Part shown: piece by piece, positions 30,410-56,886 of the stretch
Position numbering within the stretch: the stretch's first letter is position 1
Layout: every line of letters starts with the position of its first letter
NCBI RefSeq assembly: GCF_001941345.1
Contig: NZ_CP009251.1
Coordinates: 1,302,001-1,366,000, forward strand
DNA: 64,000 bases
Reading direction: 5' to 3'
Source of the DNA: Corynebacterium stationis
Lineage (GTDB): Bacteria > Actinomycetota > Actinomycetes > Mycobacteriales > Mycobacteriaceae
Program-made: the position numbers and the translations under genes
Notes under the pieces: model-generated
Database searches by the model: none
Told to the model about the DNA's origin: nothing
Seen by the model: the letters and a program-made list of their open reading frames with translations, nothing else

Positions 30410-31216
30410 TTATCCAGCATAACGGCTTAAAACAAATGCGTCCGTTCGGTAGGGGATTTTTACCTCCGTCCCAGGTTGAAAGCCCATATGCTCATAGAGG
30501 TACCAGTTAAGGTTGCCGGTCATGCGTTGTCGGGTCTTCTCATTTGCGCGCAGCCAATAAGACCGCGAGTGCATCAAGGTATGCAATTGCTCGGCTTTTA
30601 ACGTCTGCTGCCAAAAGTCGTGGTGCACTTCAGAAATAACTAAGGGCTGGTGCACTTCTGGTTTAAAGTCAGGACGCTGAACATCGCCGGAATGCATGAT
30701 GCGGGTCAGCCGCAGCACCCATGGGTCCGCGTGGACATCAATGGTGTTCCAGACTAATACTGCTTTACCACCAGGGGTTAAGACGCGGTGAAGCTCTAGG
30801 CAGGTGGCCTGCGCATCAACCCAGTGCCATGCCTGTGCACAAAATACTGCATCGATGGATCCTGAAGCCACTGCTAAATCCTCAGCGGTGCCACGCCAAC
30901 AGCTAATGCCGTGGGATTGTAAAACACGCACCATATCGGGGGATGGATCGCAGGCGACAACTAAGTCATGCGGCAAACTAAGGGTAAGCTTACCGGTTCC
31001 AGCACCGATATCGAGTGCCCGCTTACCTGATGCTAGCTTGCCGATGAAGCTGGGGTACTCAGGTCGGATTTCATCATAAAGATCAGCTCCAGCATGAAAT
31101 GCCTTCGCCAATGTTTCTTTATGCTGCGCGGTTGCAAACCTGGGGTTTTGCTTGCGCGAGGGAGGCCGGTAGCTGGGATAGTGTTCTGGGCTAGGCTGAA
31201 GAGGTTGATGCATCAT
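30410..31216 (-). CDS. Class I SAM-dependent methyltransferase
   Basis: The 268-residue protein has a Rossmann methyltransferase core: motif I 'ALDIGAGTGKL', the acidic 'VVACDPSPDMV', 'GTAEDLAVASGSIDAVFCAQAWHWVD' and 'HRVLTPGGKAVLVWN'. This is the UbiE/type-11 small-molecule group; the substrate cannot be inferred. The first 30 residues are Pro/Ser-rich and variable. Two adjacent ATG codons (31216 and 31213) are possible starts. It is divergent from the ABC exporter genes, with only 39 bp between them, so the promoters overlap. Confidence 0.85.
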   Translation of the reverse strand: MMHQPLQPSPEHYPSYRPPSRKQNPRFATAQHKETLAKAFHAGADLYDEIRPEYPSFIGKLASGKRALDIGAGTGKLTLSLPHDLVVACDPSPDMVRVLQSHGISCWRGTAEDLAVASGSIDAVFCAQAWHWVDAQATCLELHRVLTPGGKAVLVWNTIDVHADPWVLRLTRIMHSGDVQRPDFKPEVHQPLVISEVHHDFWQQTLKAEQLHTLMHSRSYWLRANEKTRQRMTGNLNWYLYEHMGFQPGTEVKIPYRTDAFVLSRYAG

Positions 31217-31255: not shown

Positions 31256-32692
31256 GTGTCTGCTCTTCCACAGGCAAACGATCCGCGGTGGCTTTTAAAA
31301 ACCATATTTTCCCGCAAAGAACGTACCATTCCCGCAGCAATTCTAATTTCTTTAACTTTTGTCTGTAATGGCTTGACCCCAGTTGTCGTGGGCCAGGCTA
31401 TCGACCGGGCAATTGCTGTGGGAAGCATATCCACGTTGTGGGTGTGGGTGGTTATATTACTCGGGATATTTATTGTCAACGCCGCGGCCGGCTGGTTTGG
31501 GCGGGCACTATTTCAACGTGCAGGTCTAGAAATCGGGCATGTGTTGCGTATGACGGTCACAGACCGCATTTCTCACCCCAAGGGCATGGCAGGCAAGCAG
31601 CGCACCGCAGGTGAGTTGTTGGCGATTGCCTCCTCAGATACGCAGCGTGTGGCAGATGCCGTAATAATGACGGTCTTTCCCTTCGCAGAGATCACATCCA
31701 TTATCTATGTTGCCGCTATGGTCTCCAGCGTCAATCTTCCCCTAGGTTTGGGTGTGCTGCTTGGCGGGCCTGTGGTCGTGATGATTTCTCTGAAGTCGGC
31801 TACTCCGCTGCGCAAACGCTCCGGGGCGCGTCAGCGAGCTTTGGCAGCTGCCTCAGCCACGGCGACCGATGTCGTGCAAGGGCTTCGAATCCTCAAAGGC
31901 CTGGGCGCGGTGGATACCGTGCGTTCGCGTTATGAGGTGGTCTCAGACAAGGCTTATGAAAAGACAGTTGCGGCTAATGGGGCGCAGGCGCGCCTGAATG
32001 CTGTGACGGAAACCGCTGGGGCTTTCTACGTCATCATCGTCGGTGTCGTCTCCGGTGTCATGGCACTGGCTGAGATGATGACAGTCGGGGAGCTCATCAC
32101 GGTGGTTGGCTTGACGCAATTTATCATCACCCCGATGACGATGCTGGGTAAGAATATTGCATCGCGGTGGGCAACCGCGCAAGCCTCCGGACGGCGTATT
32201 CAAGAGCTTTTGCTTGCCGACGCCTCCTTTAGCACCTCCTATCCGTCCCTACCCGCTCTGCGTCCTGGAATCACCGTGGTCTCGGAAATGCCGCCTGCGG
32301 AATTAGTCAATATGCCGCGGGAGAAATACCTGGTGGCACCTCATGATGCCGATATTTTTGAAGGCACCGTGTTGGACAATGTTCACCCGGACCGCGAGCG
32401 GGCTATGTGGGCGCTAGAGATAGCCGCAGCGGAAGATATTCCGGGAGGTTTTGACCGCGAGGTCGGTGAAAACGGCGGCCATCTATCCGGTGGTCAGCGC
32501 CAGCGTGTGGCGCTGGCGCGCGCTATTGCTGCCGATGCCGAGATTCTGATTCTGCAAGATCCCACCACGGCGGTGGACTCCGTTACTGAGCAGACCATCG
32601 CCGAGCGAGTCGCAGCAGCGCGCGCGGACAAGCCGACCATCGTCTATACCAATGCGCCTGCCTGGCAGGCCGTAGAAGTAGGAGCGAAGTAG
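31256..32692 (+). CDS. ABC exporter half-transporter with a truncated, degenerate ATPase domain
   Basis: The 478-residue protein has a full six-helix exporter membrane domain (about residues 20-310), but its nucleotide-binding domain is only about 140 residues. The strand region and Walker A loop are absent: after 'LLLADASFSTSYPSLP' the sequence moves directly to a Q-loop-like 'VAPHDADIFEGTVLDNV', where the glutamine is histidine. The signature 'LSGGQRQRVALARA' (from residue 410) and the D-loop 'TTAVDS' are intact. Walker B reads 'ILILQDPT' (Gln434, Asp435 in place of Asp-Glu) and the switch histidine is missing ('VYTNAP'). It cannot hydrolyse ATP alone and must pair with the next gene, 2 bp downstream. 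The cargo is unknown. Confidence 0.88.
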   Translation: MSALPQANDPRWLLKTIFSRKERTIPAAILISLTFVCNGLTPVVVGQAIDRAIAVGSISTLWVWVVILLGIFIVNAAAGWFGRALFQRAGLEIGHVLRMTVTDRISHPKGMAGKQRTAGELLAIASSDTQRVADAVIMTVFPFAEITSIIYVAAMVSSVNLPLGLGVLLGGPVVVMISLKSATPLRKRSGARQRALAAASATATDVVQGLRILKGLGAVDTVRSRYEVVSDKAYEKTVAANGAQARLNAVTETAGAFYVIIVGVVSGVMALAEMMTVGELITVVGLTQFIITPMTMLGKNIASRWATAQASGRRIQELLLADASFSTSYPSLPALRPGITVVSEMPPAELVNMPREKYLVAPHDADIFEGTVLDNVHPDRERAMWALEIAAAEDIPGGFDREVGENGGHLSGGQRQRVALARAIAADAEILILQDPTTAVDSVTEQTIAERVAAARADKPTIVYTNAPAWQAVEVGAK

Positions 32693-32694
32693 AT

Positions 32695-34443
32695 ATGAGT
32701 ATGCGTTTTCCTACCGCTACCTGGCCCCAAACCCGCAAGGTCTTAAGCAGGCACTTGCGGGAAGTGCCAAAGGCAACTCAGCAGTTTCTTTTCGCTATTG
32801 TGCTGCTTGCTCTTGGCGCGGTGGCCAATATCTGGATTCCAATCCAGCTCGGCCGTATCGTCGATGTGGTCATTTCAGCTAGTAGCACTAGTTTGCTGAG
32901 GATTACGGCAGAGCTAGTTATCGCAGCATTTGCTGCCGCTGCTTTTTCTGCTTGGGGCTTTTTCGTGCTCTCGCGATTGACGGAGCGCGTAATCGCTAAT
33001 TTGCGTGAAGACATGGTGGGTACGGCCTTGGGGCTGCCAGTCCACCGCGTGGAAGATGCTGGCTCCGGCGATTTAGTATCCCGGTCCACCGATGATGTTG
33101 CGGAGCTATCGGCGGCAGTGACTGAGACCGTCCCGATTTTGGCAAACTCCGGTTTTGCAATCATCACCACCGCCATCGCCCTCGTTACTCTGGACTGGCA
33201 ATTCTTGCTCGTCATTGTCGCTGCTGCTCCCATTTATGTCATTGCCGCGCGACGGTATCTGCGTGTTGCCCCTGGACGCTACGCCGCCGAGCGAGCATCG
33301 ATGGCTGATCGTGCACGCCGGGTGCTTGAAGCTATCCGTGGACGCGCCACCGTGCGTGCTTTTGGCATGGAAAAATCCATGCATGACCGAATCCATACTG
33401 CTTCCTGGGACGTAGTCGAGCATGGTTACTCAGCCCGAAAGACCATGCTTATTCTGCAGCTGTGGATGACCTCGGTGGAGTTTGTCATGCTGGGGGCTGG
33501 GTTGCTGGTGGGTTATCTCACTGTGCAATCAGGTGCTATGACCGTAGGTGCCGTGACCGGCGCGATGCTCATGCTGATTCGTCTGCGGGGACCACTGATG
33601 GGTCTGATGCGCGTGCTGGATACGATCCAATCGGGCTATGCCTCCTTGGCGCGCATCGCCGGCGTGGTGGTCAATCCACCGCAGCCCACCAAGCCAGCTG
33701 GTGCTCCGCCAAAAGAAGGCCACGTGGAAGTCCACGATGTCTCATTTTCCTATGGCCAAGGCTGGGCAGTAGAAGATGTCTCACTAAGCATTGACCCTGG
33801 GAAAACCGTTGCCGTCGTCGGTGCCTCCGGCGCGGGCAAAACCACCGTCGCGGCTTTGCTCGCCGGTCTGCGGGTGCCAGATTCAGGAACCGTGAAAGTC
33901 GATGGGGTAGAAGTAACCTCTTTGTCGGATTCAGAACGCGTTGCCCGCTTAGCGATGGTCTCTCAAGAAGTCCACGTCTTTTCCGGCACCCTGCGCGAGG
34001 ACTTAAGCCTGGCGCAACCAGAAGCCACCGATGACGAGATGATCGCAGTCCTCGACCGCGTTAACGCGGACTGGTTCCATCAGTTGGCGGATGGCCTCGA
34101 TACCGTAGTCGGCGCTCAAGGCCTGCAATTGGAACCGGTTGCCGCACAGCAGTTAGCACTTGCACGTGTGATGTTGTTAAATCCACGCGTGGTCGTCATG
34201 GACGAAGCCACCGCCGAGGCAGGTTCACAAGGTGCGCAATCGTTGCAGGATGCAGCGGAGGAATTGGCCAAAGACCGTGCCGCACTGGTGGTCGCACACA
34301 GGTTGGATCAGGCATCGCGTGCCGATGAAATTTTAGTGATGGACAACGGACGCGTCGTAGAGCGGGGAACCCATGCGCAGTTGTTAGAATTTGATGGCCG
34401 TTACCAGCAGCTTTGGACGGCTTGGCAGCGTGGTAGACAATAG
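32695..34443 (+). CDS. ABC exporter half-transporter with catalytic Walker motifs but no signature motif
   Basis: The 582-residue protein has a complete exporter membrane domain and a full-length ATPase domain. Intact are the A-loop tyrosine ('SFSYGQG'), Walker A 'GASGAGKTT' (376-384), the Q-loop 'MVSQEVHVFSGT', Walker B 'VVVMDEAT' (Asp503, Glu504) and the switch His535 in 'VVAHRLDQ'. The signature is lost: 'GLQLEPVAAQQLALAR' stands where LSGGQ is expected (about 479-483), and the D-loop is 'TAEAGS'. These losses are the exact complement of the partner encoded 2 bp upstream, so the heterodimer keeps one working ATP site. The substrate cannot be inferred. Confidence 0.9.
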   Translation: MSMRFPTATWPQTRKVLSRHLREVPKATQQFLFAIVLLALGAVANIWIPIQLGRIVDVVISASSTSLLRITAELVIAAFAAAAFSAWGFFVLSRLTERVIANLREDMVGTALGLPVHRVEDAGSGDLVSRSTDDVAELSAAVTETVPILANSGFAIITTAIALVTLDWQFLLVIVAAAPIYVIAARRYLRVAPGRYAAERASMADRARRVLEAIRGRATVRAFGMEKSMHDRIHTASWDVVEHGYSARKTMLILQLWMTSVEFVMLGAGLLVGYLTVQSGAMTVGAVTGAMLMLIRLRGPLMGLMRVLDTIQSGYASLARIAGVVVNPPQPTKPAGAPPKEGHVEVHDVSFSYGQGWAVEDVSLSIDPGKTVAVVGASGAGKTTVAALLAGLRVPDSGTVKVDGVEVTSLSDSERVARLAMVSQEVHVFSGTLREDLSLAQPEATDDEMIAVLDRVNADWFHQLADGLDTVVGAQGLQLEPVAAQQLALARVMLLNPRVVVMDEATAEAGSQGAQSLQDAAEELAKDRAALVVAHRLDQASRADEILVMDNGRVVERGTHAQLLEFDGRYQQLWTAWQRGRQ

Positions 34444-34497: not shown

Positions 34498-35565
34498 GTG
34501 CACACAACCAGCCATTTCGGGCGTGCTGCAGCTAAAAAGATCACCCTTGTTTTGTCTGCGGTAGTGCTGACTGCGACCTTGGCCTCATGCTCGGAGGTGT
34601 CATCGCGTGGTGAAACCTCCTCGCTTTCAGGTGAGAGCTCGACGGCTGTTAGCAGCGAATCGGAAGCAAACCCTGGCACTTATGACTTGGGACTTCCTAC
34701 CTCTGCGCCTTTAGCAGGGCCTGAGCCAGGCTCTTCACAAACCATCAATCTTGCCTCGGGCCGGAAATTTATCCTGCATGTGCCCAGCTCTTATCAACCG
34801 GGCAAGAAGTGGCCAGTCGTGCTGGCTTTCCATGGTTGGAAAGAAACCGCTGAGATGATGCAGCGTTATACGGAATTAGATGCTGCCGATGCCATCGTGG
34901 CTTATCCCGCGGGTGAAGACCGTGCGTGGGCACCAGCTCCTTATGCCAAAACCACCGGTGCAGAAGATACCCAGTTTGTCCGCGATATCGTGGATTCGCT
35001 CCGTGCCACTTACGCAGTCGATGATGAACGCATCTATGCCACTGGCATGTCCAATGGCGGCGGATTTGCTGCCTACCTTGGCTGCCAGATGCCGGATGTT
35101 TTCAAATCTGTAGCGACAGTCTCAGCTGCGTATTACCAGGCTATTCACGCCTCCTGTAAGGGTGAACCAGTCGGCCGGCTCGATATGCACGGCACGTTGG
35201 ACCCAGTCGTGGATTACTACGGCGGAACCCGCCACAAGGAACGCTATGTTTCAGTTCCTGAAGTAGTTTCCATGGATGCCCAGCGCAACCGCTGCGAAGG
35301 CAATCTCAACACTGAGCGCCTGGCTAATAATGCGCTCTTGGTGCAGTGGGAGCAATGTCAGTATCCGGTTCAACACATCCGCATCGGTGGCGGCAAACAT
35401 GTCTGGCCCGGTGGCAACTATGACGATGCCAGCGATGTAGGCTTTGGCTTTGCCACCGATAAGGTCTTGGACTTCTTTTCCATCCCAGGACGTCCCGCTG
35501 GTATGGAAGAAGCCCGCACCGTGGAAACCGGAACTATGGAAGATGAAGACTTTAGCGCTAGCTAA
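34498..35565 (+). CDS. Lipoprotein esterase of the PHB-depolymerase/LpqC type
   Basis: The 355-residue precursor has a lipoprotein signal peptide with lipobox 'TLASC' (Cys31), a Ser/Glu-rich linker, and an alpha/beta-hydrolase domain. Visible are the oxyanion region 'LAFHGWKE', the nucleophile serine in 'ATGMSNGGGFAAY', the acid in 'HGTLDPVV' and the histidine in 'GGGKHVWPGG'. This matches polyhydroxybutyrate depolymerase/feruloyl esterase-like lipoproteins; the natural ester is not known. The start is a GTG with GAGGAG about 6 nt upstream. It follows the exporter genes and its last 8 bp overlap the convergent methyltransferase gene. Confidence 0.85.
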   Translation: MHTTSHFGRAAAKKITLVLSAVVLTATLASCSEVSSRGETSSLSGESSTAVSSESEANPGTYDLGLPTSAPLAGPEPGSSQTINLASGRKFILHVPSSYQPGKKWPVVLAFHGWKETAEMMQRYTELDAADAIVAYPAGEDRAWAPAPYAKTTGAEDTQFVRDIVDSLRATYAVDDERIYATGMSNGGGFAAYLGCQMPDVFKSVATVSAAYYQAIHASCKGEPVGRLDMHGTLDPVVDYYGGTRHKERYVSVPEVVSMDAQRNRCEGNLNTERLANNALLVQWEQCQYPVQHIRIGGGKHVWPGGNYDDASDVGFGFATDKVLDFFSIPGRPAGMEEARTVETGTMEDEDFSAS

Positions 35566-55236: not shown

Positions 55237-55242
55237 AGGACC

Positions 55243-56886
55243 ATGTCTCAAGCATTGCTTCATATTGACAACCTGGCGGTTAGCTACCACACCCGCCGCG
55301 GAGATGTCGCTGCAGTATCAGGTGTGAGCCTAGAAGTTCATCCAGGTGAGATTACTGCGATCGTCGGCGAGTCCGGCTCCGGTAAATCCACAACAGCGAT
55401 GGCCGCCATTGGCCTTTTGCCGCGCAGCGCCAGCGTGGATACCGGCGAGGTGCACTTCAAAGGCCGCGATATCACCAATTTGTCTAATTCACAGTGGCGT
55501 CAGCTTCGTGGGCAGCAGATTGCGCTGATTCCGCAGGACCCGAACAACTCCCTAAACCCGGTCAAAACCATTGGCGCTTCCGTGGAAGAAGCCATGGTAA
55601 TTCACCGCCATGGCACGGCTGCAGAACGCAAGCGCCGCGCGATTGAACTGTTGGAAACCGTCGGCATTGACGACCCGCAGCGCCGGTATGGCCAATATCC
55701 GCATGAGCTTTCCGGTGGCATGAAGCAGCGCGTGCTCATTGCTGCAGCGTTGTCTTTAGAGCCCGAGCTGATCATCGCCGATGAGCCGACTTCGGCGCTC
55801 GATGTCACCGTGCAAAAGGTCATTTTGGACCTGCTGGACCGCATGCGCGAAGAGCTAGGCCTAGGCATCTTATTTATTACCCACGACCTCGCGGTGGCCG
55901 GCGATCGCGCCGACCGCATCGTGGTGATGGAAAAGGGCCAAGTCCGCGAAGAGGGATTGGCCGCTAACGTGCTCACCGATCCCCAGGACGACTACTCCAA
56001 GCGCTTGCTTGCCGATGCTCCGTCGCTCGCCACCGCACAAATCCACCGCCAAGCGGCTCCAGCACTGAGTACTTTGACCGAGGAGGCTGCCGGAGCAGGC
56101 AGCCAGCCTTTGGTAAAGGTAGAAGGCCTGAGTAAAAAGTACGGGGATTTCACTGCCGTGCAGGATATCTCCTTTGAGGTGCGCCCCGGTTCCACCCACG
56201 CGCTAGTCGGGGAGTCCGGTTCCGGTAAGACCACCACCGGCCGCATGATCTCCTTATTCGAGACCCCGACAGCAGGCTCAATCACGGTGGATGGGGTCGA
56301 TATCCTGGCTGCTAACGCTGCCGAGCGTAAAGAACTGCGTAGCAATATCCAGCTGGTCTATCAGAACCCATACTCGTCACTAGACCCGCGCATGCGTATT
56401 GGCGATATCATTGCCGAGCCTTTCCGCAACTTCACCCGCGCTTCCAAATCCAAAGCCCAGGCGCGCGCCAAGGAGTACTTGGAATTAGTTTCCTTGGATG
56501 CTGATATGTACGCGCGCCGCCCCCGTGAGCTATCCGGTGGGCAGCGCCAACGTGTAGCCATTGCCCGCGCGCTCATCGTAGAGCCCGAGCTGGTCATTTT
56601 AGACGAGGCAGTCTCGGCCCTCGACGTTACCGTGCAAGCCCAGATCATCCGCCTTTTGGATAAGCTGCAGAAAGACTTGAGCTTGACGTACATTTTCATC
56701 TCGCATGACCTTGCGGTGGTGCGCCAGATTTCCGATACCGTGAGCGTTTTGCGCCGCGGTGAACAAGTCGAGCAAGGCATTACTGAAGAGGTCTTCCGTG
56801 CGCCGCAGTCAGAATTTACCCGCAACCTCATCGGGGCTATTCCCGGGCAGCGCTACCGCGCAGGCGACCTGAACTTAGGGCTTTAA
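55243..56886 (+). CDS. ABC importer ATPase with two fused nucleotide-binding domains (DppD-DppF type)
   Basis: The 547-residue protein carries two complete ATPase domains. The first has Walker A 'VGESGSGKSTT', signature 'LSGGMKQRV' and Walker B 'LIIADEPTSALD'. The second has Walker A 'VGESGSGKTT', signature 'LSGGQRQRV' and Walker B 'LVILDEAVSALD'. Both show the switch histidine in 'FITHDLAV' and 'FISHDLAV'. It powers the importer formed with the preceding three genes. The CMD-domain gene begins 30 bp later and belongs to the same operon. Confidence 0.94.
   Translation: MSQALLHIDNLAVSYHTRRGDVAAVSGVSLEVHPGEITAIVGESGSGKSTTAMAAIGLLPRSASVDTGEVHFKGRDITNLSNSQWRQLRGQQIALIPQDPNNSLNPVKTIGASVEEAMVIHRHGTAAERKRRAIELLETVGIDDPQRRYGQYPHELSGGMKQRVLIAAALSLEPELIIADEPTSALDVTVQKVILDLLDRMREELGLGILFITHDLAVAGDRADRIVVMEKGQVREEGLAANVLTDPQDDYSKRLLADAPSLATAQIHRQAAPALSTLTEEAAGAGSQPLVKVEGLSKKYGDFTAVQDISFEVRPGSTHALVGESGSGKTTTGRMISLFETPTAGSITVDGVDILAANAAERKELRSNIQLVYQNPYSSLDPRMRIGDIIAEPFRNFTRASKSKAQARAKEYLELVSLDADMYARRPRELSGGQRQRVAIARALIVEPELVILDEAVSALDVTVQAQIIRLLDKLQKDLSLTYIFISHDLAVVRQISDTVSVLRRGEQVEQGITEEVFRAPQSEFTRNLIGAIPGQRYRAGDLNLGL

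Follow-up and report, generated by a model that had tools for sequence, protein, structure and literature searches.

A family of actinobacterial ABC exporter pairs with a predicted single ATP site and one half lacking Walker A

The stretch of the Corynebacterium stationis genome analysed here (64,000 nucleotides, positions 1,302,001 to 1,366,000 of contig NZ_CP009251.1; hereafter, the window) contains two adjacent genes, ORF1 and ORF2, which very probably encode a heterodimeric ATP-binding cassette (ABC) exporter with one working ATP site. Comparison with related loci indicates that this one-site anatomy is a family trait across actinobacteria and is not peculiar to the window locus. Heterodimeric exporters of this fold, and the idea that one of their two sites is dead, are already known; a large lineage in which nucleotides are no longer bound at the dead site, the structure for binding them having been removed in corynebacteria and some of their relatives, appears to be undescribed, and a search of the open-access literature found no description of an ABC exporter family with halves lacking Walker A.

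Anatomy of the two half-transporters

ORF1 (the A half; 31256..32692, 478 residues, GTG start) is followed after a gap of two bases by ORF2 (the B half; 32695..34443, 582 residues); both reading frames are uninterrupted and, like all features of the pair given below, lie on the plus strand. Pfam searches found a transmembrane domain (ABC_membrane, PF00664) and a nucleotide-binding domain (NBD; ABC_tran, PF00005) in each protein, which makes them two adjacent half-transporters. Both matches are complete in ORF2, where further matches are weak and below the cut-off, and ORF1 has these two matches only. The ORF1 transmembrane domain covers residues 33–294 (31352..32137), and its ABC_tran match (residues 354–437, profile positions 57–136 of 137) starts only at profile position 57, so that ORF1 lacks the end of the domain that carries Walker A.

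The alignment of ORF1 with ORF2 contains a shortened segment (ORF1 residues 314–360; 32195..32335), where 46 residues of ORF1 lie between the last transmembrane helix and the Q-loop (before V360), against 101 residues of ORF2 in the same alignment columns. The net loss is 55 residues, so the deletion of about 60 residues estimated in a preliminary description of this DNA, made from the sequence alone, was a fair figure. The P-loop and the neighbouring strands and helix are deleted from this segment and a single strand (residues 338–342) is retained, reading PGITVV opposite PGKTVAVV in ORF2; after PGITVV, the chain passes directly to the Q-loop region (APH where ORF2 has SQE), and the P-loop and the parts that follow it are therefore gone. 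ORF1 retains the signature LSGGQ (residues 410–414; 32483..32497) and the D-loop TTAVDSVT (437–444; 32564..32587) with Asp441; it has Gln434-Asp435 in place of the Walker B Asp-Glu (32555..32560) and, at residue 466 (IVYTNAP), Asn at the position of the switch His (32651..32653). The C-terminal tail past the switch position is 12 residues long in ORF1 versus 47 in ORF2, a second loss from the ATPase domain, of about 35 residues, which was absent from the preliminary description.

ORF2 is a full half-exporter, in which the alignment identifies the A-loop FSYG (residues 351–354; 33745..33756), Walker A GASGAGKTT (376–384; 33820..33846), the Q-loop Gln424 (33964..33966), the Walker B Asp503-Glu504 (34201..34206) and the switch His535 (34297..34299). 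Its C-loop is altered (LQLEPVAAQQLALAR, residues 477–491; 34123..34167), LSGGQ being lost and the signature position reading LEPVAAQQ, and its D-loop has become TAEAGS (506–511; 34210..34227), as in most of the family.

The working composite site would combine the A-loop, Walker A, Walker B, Q-loop and His of ORF2 with LSGGQ and the D-loop Asp of ORF1, giving one complete consensus site. The opposite site has lost the P-loop, the Mg-binding Walker B Asp and the switch His of ORF1 as well as the signature and D-loop Asp of ORF2. Each of the retained and changed motifs that the preliminary description had listed for the two proteins was recovered in the alignment, and its picture of one complete composite site opposite a site with no functional motif holds for this pair, as far as the sequences can tell.

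Distribution of the family in Actinomycetota

Seventy loci were collected from named genomes, mainly of Corynebacterium, but also of Dietzia, Rhodococcus, Propionibacteriaceae, Xylanimicrobium, Microbacterium and others; further loci from other genomes of the class and phylum gave the same picture. The set of 162 A halves comprises L001–L101, L133–L192 and the window (147 are distinct, near-duplicates being included); L102 was dropped for a score below the A-half threshold, and L193–L212 and L231–L232 stand outside the set and were read separately.

The P-loop pattern G.{4}GK[ST] occurs in none of the 162 A halves, and SGG[QE] occurs in 160 of them, the exceptions being L084, at a contig end, and L092, a broken gene. 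Among the B halves, the P-loop is present in 158 of 159 (again except L092), the sole SGG[QE] match lies upstream of the protein start, and the 'SGG' found near the end of 16 proteins is never at the signature. The D-loop Asp is retained in all 160 A halves, the switch window contains no His in any of them, and the position of the Walker B Asp is occupied by Gln (58), His (35), Ser (14), Asp (11), Val (11), Ala (10) or other residues. SGGQ does not vary among the 75 A halves of an alignment, and the column of the Walker A Lys contains no Lys in 84 rows. Among 125 distinct complete B halves the D-loop is TAEAGS in 85, a near variant in 17 and of the usual kind with Asp (TSLIDP, TSLLDP and similar) in 11; in the remaining 12, the first 'DEA' match falls outside the D-loop and was not counted as one. 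These counts indicate that, family-wide, Walker A and the switch His are lost throughout the A halves, and Walker B in most of them.

The A half comes first and the B half lies next to it in 58 of 60 loci (the stretches of L171 and L172 yielded no B half), and the two are adjacent in 66 of 67 loci of a second set, where the exception is again L084. This constant pairing bears on the possibility that the role of ORF1 is chiefly regulatory or structural and that ORF2 transports alone as a homodimer, ORF2 having all the motifs required for ATP binding. An ORF2 homodimer, however, would be left without a complete site, since ORF2 has no signature motif, and both the invariance of SGGQ in the A halves and the side-by-side arrangement of the genes argue against it, so that this possibility seems very unlikely.

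The genome of the window (G000) carries two further pairs of this kind, at C1:2791400-2796200 (L173) and C1:124600-129500 (L174), and thus three Walker-A-less exporters in total; one of the additional pairs represents a separate group (A-half frame of 491 residues), and the other is similar to TetAB (B-half frame of 611 residues). TetAB, also called TexAB, is encoded by the plasmid pTP10 of Corynebacterium striatum (NF000506/NF000103) as an adjacent A–B pair, like ORF1 and ORF2. Like ORF1, TetA has no Walker A and has both the segment and the C-terminus shortened; like ORF2, TetB possesses Walker A, has the D-loop TAEAGS and has lost the signature (IPPEVEQQ in TetB). The Walker B of TetA is Asp-Asp, in contrast to Gln-Asp in ORF1, the two proteins are 32% identical, and the window pair does not reach the TetAB equivalog cut-offs (148.7 against 1025 bits for ORF1 and the TetA model, and 241.4 against 999). 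In the part of the literature on TetAB available here, the pair is reported to be a heterodimeric tetracycline exporter and to confer resistance; given the same anatomy, this suggests by analogy that one-site pairs can work. By eye, TetB (L031, 4369-5955) has roughly 75 residues fewer between the last transmembrane helices and the P-loop than other B halves.

Two observations concern individual loci. In L204, L205 and L209 the A half is preceded upstream by a third ABC-exporter frame, in which Walker A, DEA and AHRL are intact; three consecutive ABC genes thus seem to be present at these loci. The 1414-residue frame of L087, considered as a candidate natural fusion of the two halves, has an assembly run of N in its middle and was rejected as a fusion.

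Conservation and selection

An ATPase domain without Walker A appears broken at first sight, and a few relatives are truly damaged (G100 and L092), which might point to a sequencing error, a frameshift or a decaying pseudogene. The same gap, however, is common to all 18 relatives aligned with ORF1 (the 20th alignment row being ORF2) and is also present in window-family loci; the preliminary description had proposed looking for orthologues with the same deletion, and close relatives proved to have it, while the search for a frameshift or sequencing error that would restore Walker A found intact frames and no such error. ORF1 is 98% identical to its counterpart in Corynebacterium sp. J010B-136, the nearest record among the loci from named genomes. 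A one-piece match with at least 51% identity over at least 460 residues was found in 63 of 151 Corynebacterium genomes, the window's included; G027, G095 and G092 carry a match in pieces or in part, G082 has one at 44%, and the remaining genomes have weaker matches only.

The ratio of nonsynonymous to synonymous substitution rates (dN/dS, Nei–Gojobori) for the ATPase remnant of ORF1 is 0.053, 0.047 and 0.029 in comparison with L002, L003 and L033, respectively, similar to that of the transmembrane part (0.064, 0.067 and 0.022), and the shortened spacer is looser (0.110, 0.105 and 0.254); the ratios are rough, as synonymous differences are near saturation against L002 and L003, and they are saturated for the remnant against L004 and L007. 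These values indicate that the ATPase remnant is under purifying selection. The conservation of the gap, together with a dN/dS of 0.03–0.05 for the remnant, excludes chance or error, neither a broken frame nor relaxed selection is seen in ORF1 and ORF2, and the retention of SGG[QE] in nearly all A halves points the same way, leaving next to no probability for an artefact or a pseudogene.

As for the damaged or cut copies, the frames of L092 (Rhodococcus sp. JCM 9791) are broken, the copy in G100 (C1:1042232-1043683), one of the 63 genomes mentioned above, has two in-frame stops, the pair L087 contains the run of N, and L084 is cut by the end of its contig.

Conventional relatives and evolutionary history

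Conventional pairs of the phylum were taken from adjacent hits scoring below the family and were chosen, not sampled at random; L213 and L214 (the same places as L211 and L212) had already been seen to keep the P-loop before this control. Walker A is present in all 15 A-type and all 16 B-type halves (31 of 31 in the tree), in agreement with the earlier remark that asymmetric exporters normally keep it, and the losses described here are therefore not general to asymmetric exporters. The conventional A halves have the Walker B Asp-Asp in 13 cases and Asp-Glu in two (L223 and L225), with LSGGQ in all; the conventional B halves show a mild signature change (LSAGERQ and similar) and have the D-loop Asp.

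A joint tree was built by a quick method, with no bootstrap, from halves chosen to span the groups, with the segment columns left out; L217 and L219 (single long frames, both with a P-loop) were not included, and L216 gave only one half. In this tree, all 29 A halves without Walker A group in one clade (support 100 in the Shimodaira–Hasegawa-like approximate likelihood ratio test, SH-aLRT) inside the conventional A halves, and the 19 partner-type B halves group in another (100), which stands beside the conventional B halves; ORF1 belongs to the single P-loop-less clade and ORF2 to the matching B clade. With a single clade of Walker-A-less A halves, one loss of Walker A suffices, and the topology indicates that the family descends from conventional asymmetric exporters. 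The change in the B-half D-loop probably came later than the loss of Walker A, because the partners in the first-branching clade (L180, L181, L185, L188 and L189) still carry the D-loop Asp.

A separate tree of A halves (without L172 and L087, its window-family rows being a selection) bears on the order of the later losses. L032, L133 and L100, which have the segment yet possess short C-termini (13, 25 and 8 residues, respectively), join the deletion rows of the window and TetA (support 99), which suggests that in the window's branch the C-terminus of the A half was lost before the segment. The free tree places the deletion of L173, L175, L176 and L177 apart from the window and TetA rows, so that the deletion would have arisen twice, but the approximately unbiased (AU) test does not reject a tree with all deletion rows in one clade (p-AU 0.48, log-likelihood difference 1.63); convergence by independent deletions is therefore not claimed. 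The trees indicate that the segment was deleted later than the loss of Walker A, one to three times.

The starting point would have been a conventional asymmetric exporter in which each half had Walker A, the Walker B of the A half was mostly Asp-Asp and the signature of the B half was mildly altered. A single ancestor of the family within Actinomycetota would have lost the P-loop and the switch His from its A half and the signature glycines from its B half; the B-half D-loop would then have changed to TAEAGS in most lines, the A-half C-terminus would have been lost in the window's branch and, last, the useless P-loop segment would have been deleted.

Mode of operation and comparison with known exporters

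In such a pump, binding of ATP at the single site would close the NBD dimer and flip the transmembrane domains, hydrolysis at this site would reopen the dimer, and the dead site would serve as a nucleotide-free protein–protein hinge. The preliminary description had proposed a minimal one-site exporter; the one-site anatomy stood, and the other part of the proposal, operation with one ATP per cycle, is what we infer from it. We moderately favour a broader statement, according to which this whole family, spread across the phylum, would use only one ATP in each cycle, the hinge nucleotide having been given up once and its site later deleted in corynebacteria and some relatives, with a nucleotide-free hinge left behind.

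The degenerate site might instead still hold ATP as a hinge by means of residues unlike Walker A, as a conventional asymmetric exporter would. The descent of the family from such exporters and the Walker B Asp-Glu retained in four of the 160 A halves are in line with this, and the available part of a review argues that ATP at the degenerate site acts as a hinge (PMC7756269). Yet the deletion in ORF1 has taken the P-loop together with the strands and helix that flank it, ORF1 also lacks the Walker B Asp and the His, ORF2 has lost its signature and D-loop, and no Lys stands at the Lys column of the aligned A halves; we consider ATP retention improbable and prefer a pump with one working site.

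TM287/288, TmrAB, BmrCD and MsRv1273c/72c resemble ORF1/ORF2 in fold, in consisting of two half-transporters and in having one consensus and one degenerate site; the conventional actinobacterial pairs examined here have Walker A in both halves, whereas ORF1 has none. For MsRv1273c/72c, ATP is described, in the accessible portion of the report, as bound at the degenerate site through Walker A (PMC12038006). Pdr5 and human ABCG5/G8 are like ORF1 in that Walker A of one site is changed, and in Pdr5 all motifs of the degenerate site are altered according to the review passages available (PMC7756269), but the Walker A changes in these proteins are point changes only (Lys to Cys or Arg), as opposed to the deletion in ORF1. 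The human ABCB5-beta isoform has, as stated in the part of the source at hand, one NBD without A-loop and Walker A (PMC11391348); it is an isoform of one gene with the Walker-A-less NBD before the transmembrane domain, unlike the conserved gene pair considered here.

Several points weigh against the one-site exporter. The composite sites are read from the sequences, and the emptiness of the second site is deduced from missing motifs. The Walker B Asp persists in 11 of the 160 A halves, four of which (L160, L174, L185 and L191) have Asp-Glu, and the first-branching clade has partners with the D-loop Asp. Exporter-fold siderophore importers exist (IrtAB and YbtPQ), and one of the plasmid-borne relatives discussed below, that of Pseudonocardia, lies without a biosynthetic cluster. 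TetB lacks part of the transmembrane and A-loop region, which makes TetAB an imperfect functional precedent. In the conventional TetAB(60), removal of Walker A from either half abolished resistance, according to the part of the report available (PMC5138185), and its loss is therefore not tolerated in every background.

The single-site mode, if true, would contradict, with an example from nature, the view that ATP has to stay at the degenerate site. It is an open question why a second ATP, not usefully hydrolysed, is retained by asymmetric ABC exporters, and this question would become directly testable with this family, which diverged stepwise in just that way under selection: natural pumps with an eroded or deleted second site can be compared with close conventional cousins. 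The resemblance also suggests that TetAB, a listed resistance pump, works by the one-site mode.

Genomic surroundings and possible substrate

An esterase of the polyhydroxybutyrate (PHB)-depolymerase type is encoded 54 bases downstream of ORF2 (34498..35565, plus strand), and a divergent gene on the other side of the pair encodes an S-adenosylmethionine (SAM) methyltransferase (30410..31216, minus strand); they are found beside the pair in 34 and 38 of 67 loci, respectively, and are the only neighbours of the window pair that are conserved. The esterase is a possible operon partner of the pair, and both enzymes may be linked to the substrate of the pump. An attempt to deduce the substrate from these neighbours was abandoned, the methyltransferase and the esterase being neither siderophore nor antibiotic genes, and seven neighbour proteins at four other loci (L060, L065, L077 and L082) matched unrelated families or none.

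Neighbours were also read for four plasmid-borne relatives: two, in Tsukamurella and Rhodococcus, are located in catechol siderophore clusters, the relative in S. globosus has capreomycidine synthase and lysine 2,3-aminomutase genes in its cluster, which we take to be streptothricin-like, and the fourth is the Pseudonocardia relative mentioned above. By analogy with these relatives, the window pair probably transports a small molecule that is secreted, for example a siderophore, an antibiotic or a drug. The two siderophore clusters, and the presence of IrtAB and YbtPQ among the fold neighbours of the models, raise the question of whether the ORF1/ORF2 pair imports, as these exporter-fold siderophore importers do. 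IrtAB-type importers have a siderophore-interacting domain on one half. Pfam searches found this domain in neither ORF1 nor ORF2, one relative lies in the antibiotic cluster and the relative TetAB is described as an exporter in the part of its literature available; import is thus an unlikely alternative to export.

A phage origin of the pair was also considered and rejected, with no match in the phage collection. Elsewhere in the window, positions 55237-56883 encode a tandem-domain ABC ATPase of the dipeptide/oligopeptide type, unrelated to the exporter pair, with two ABC_tran stretches; its best NCBIfam match is YejF, below the cut-off.

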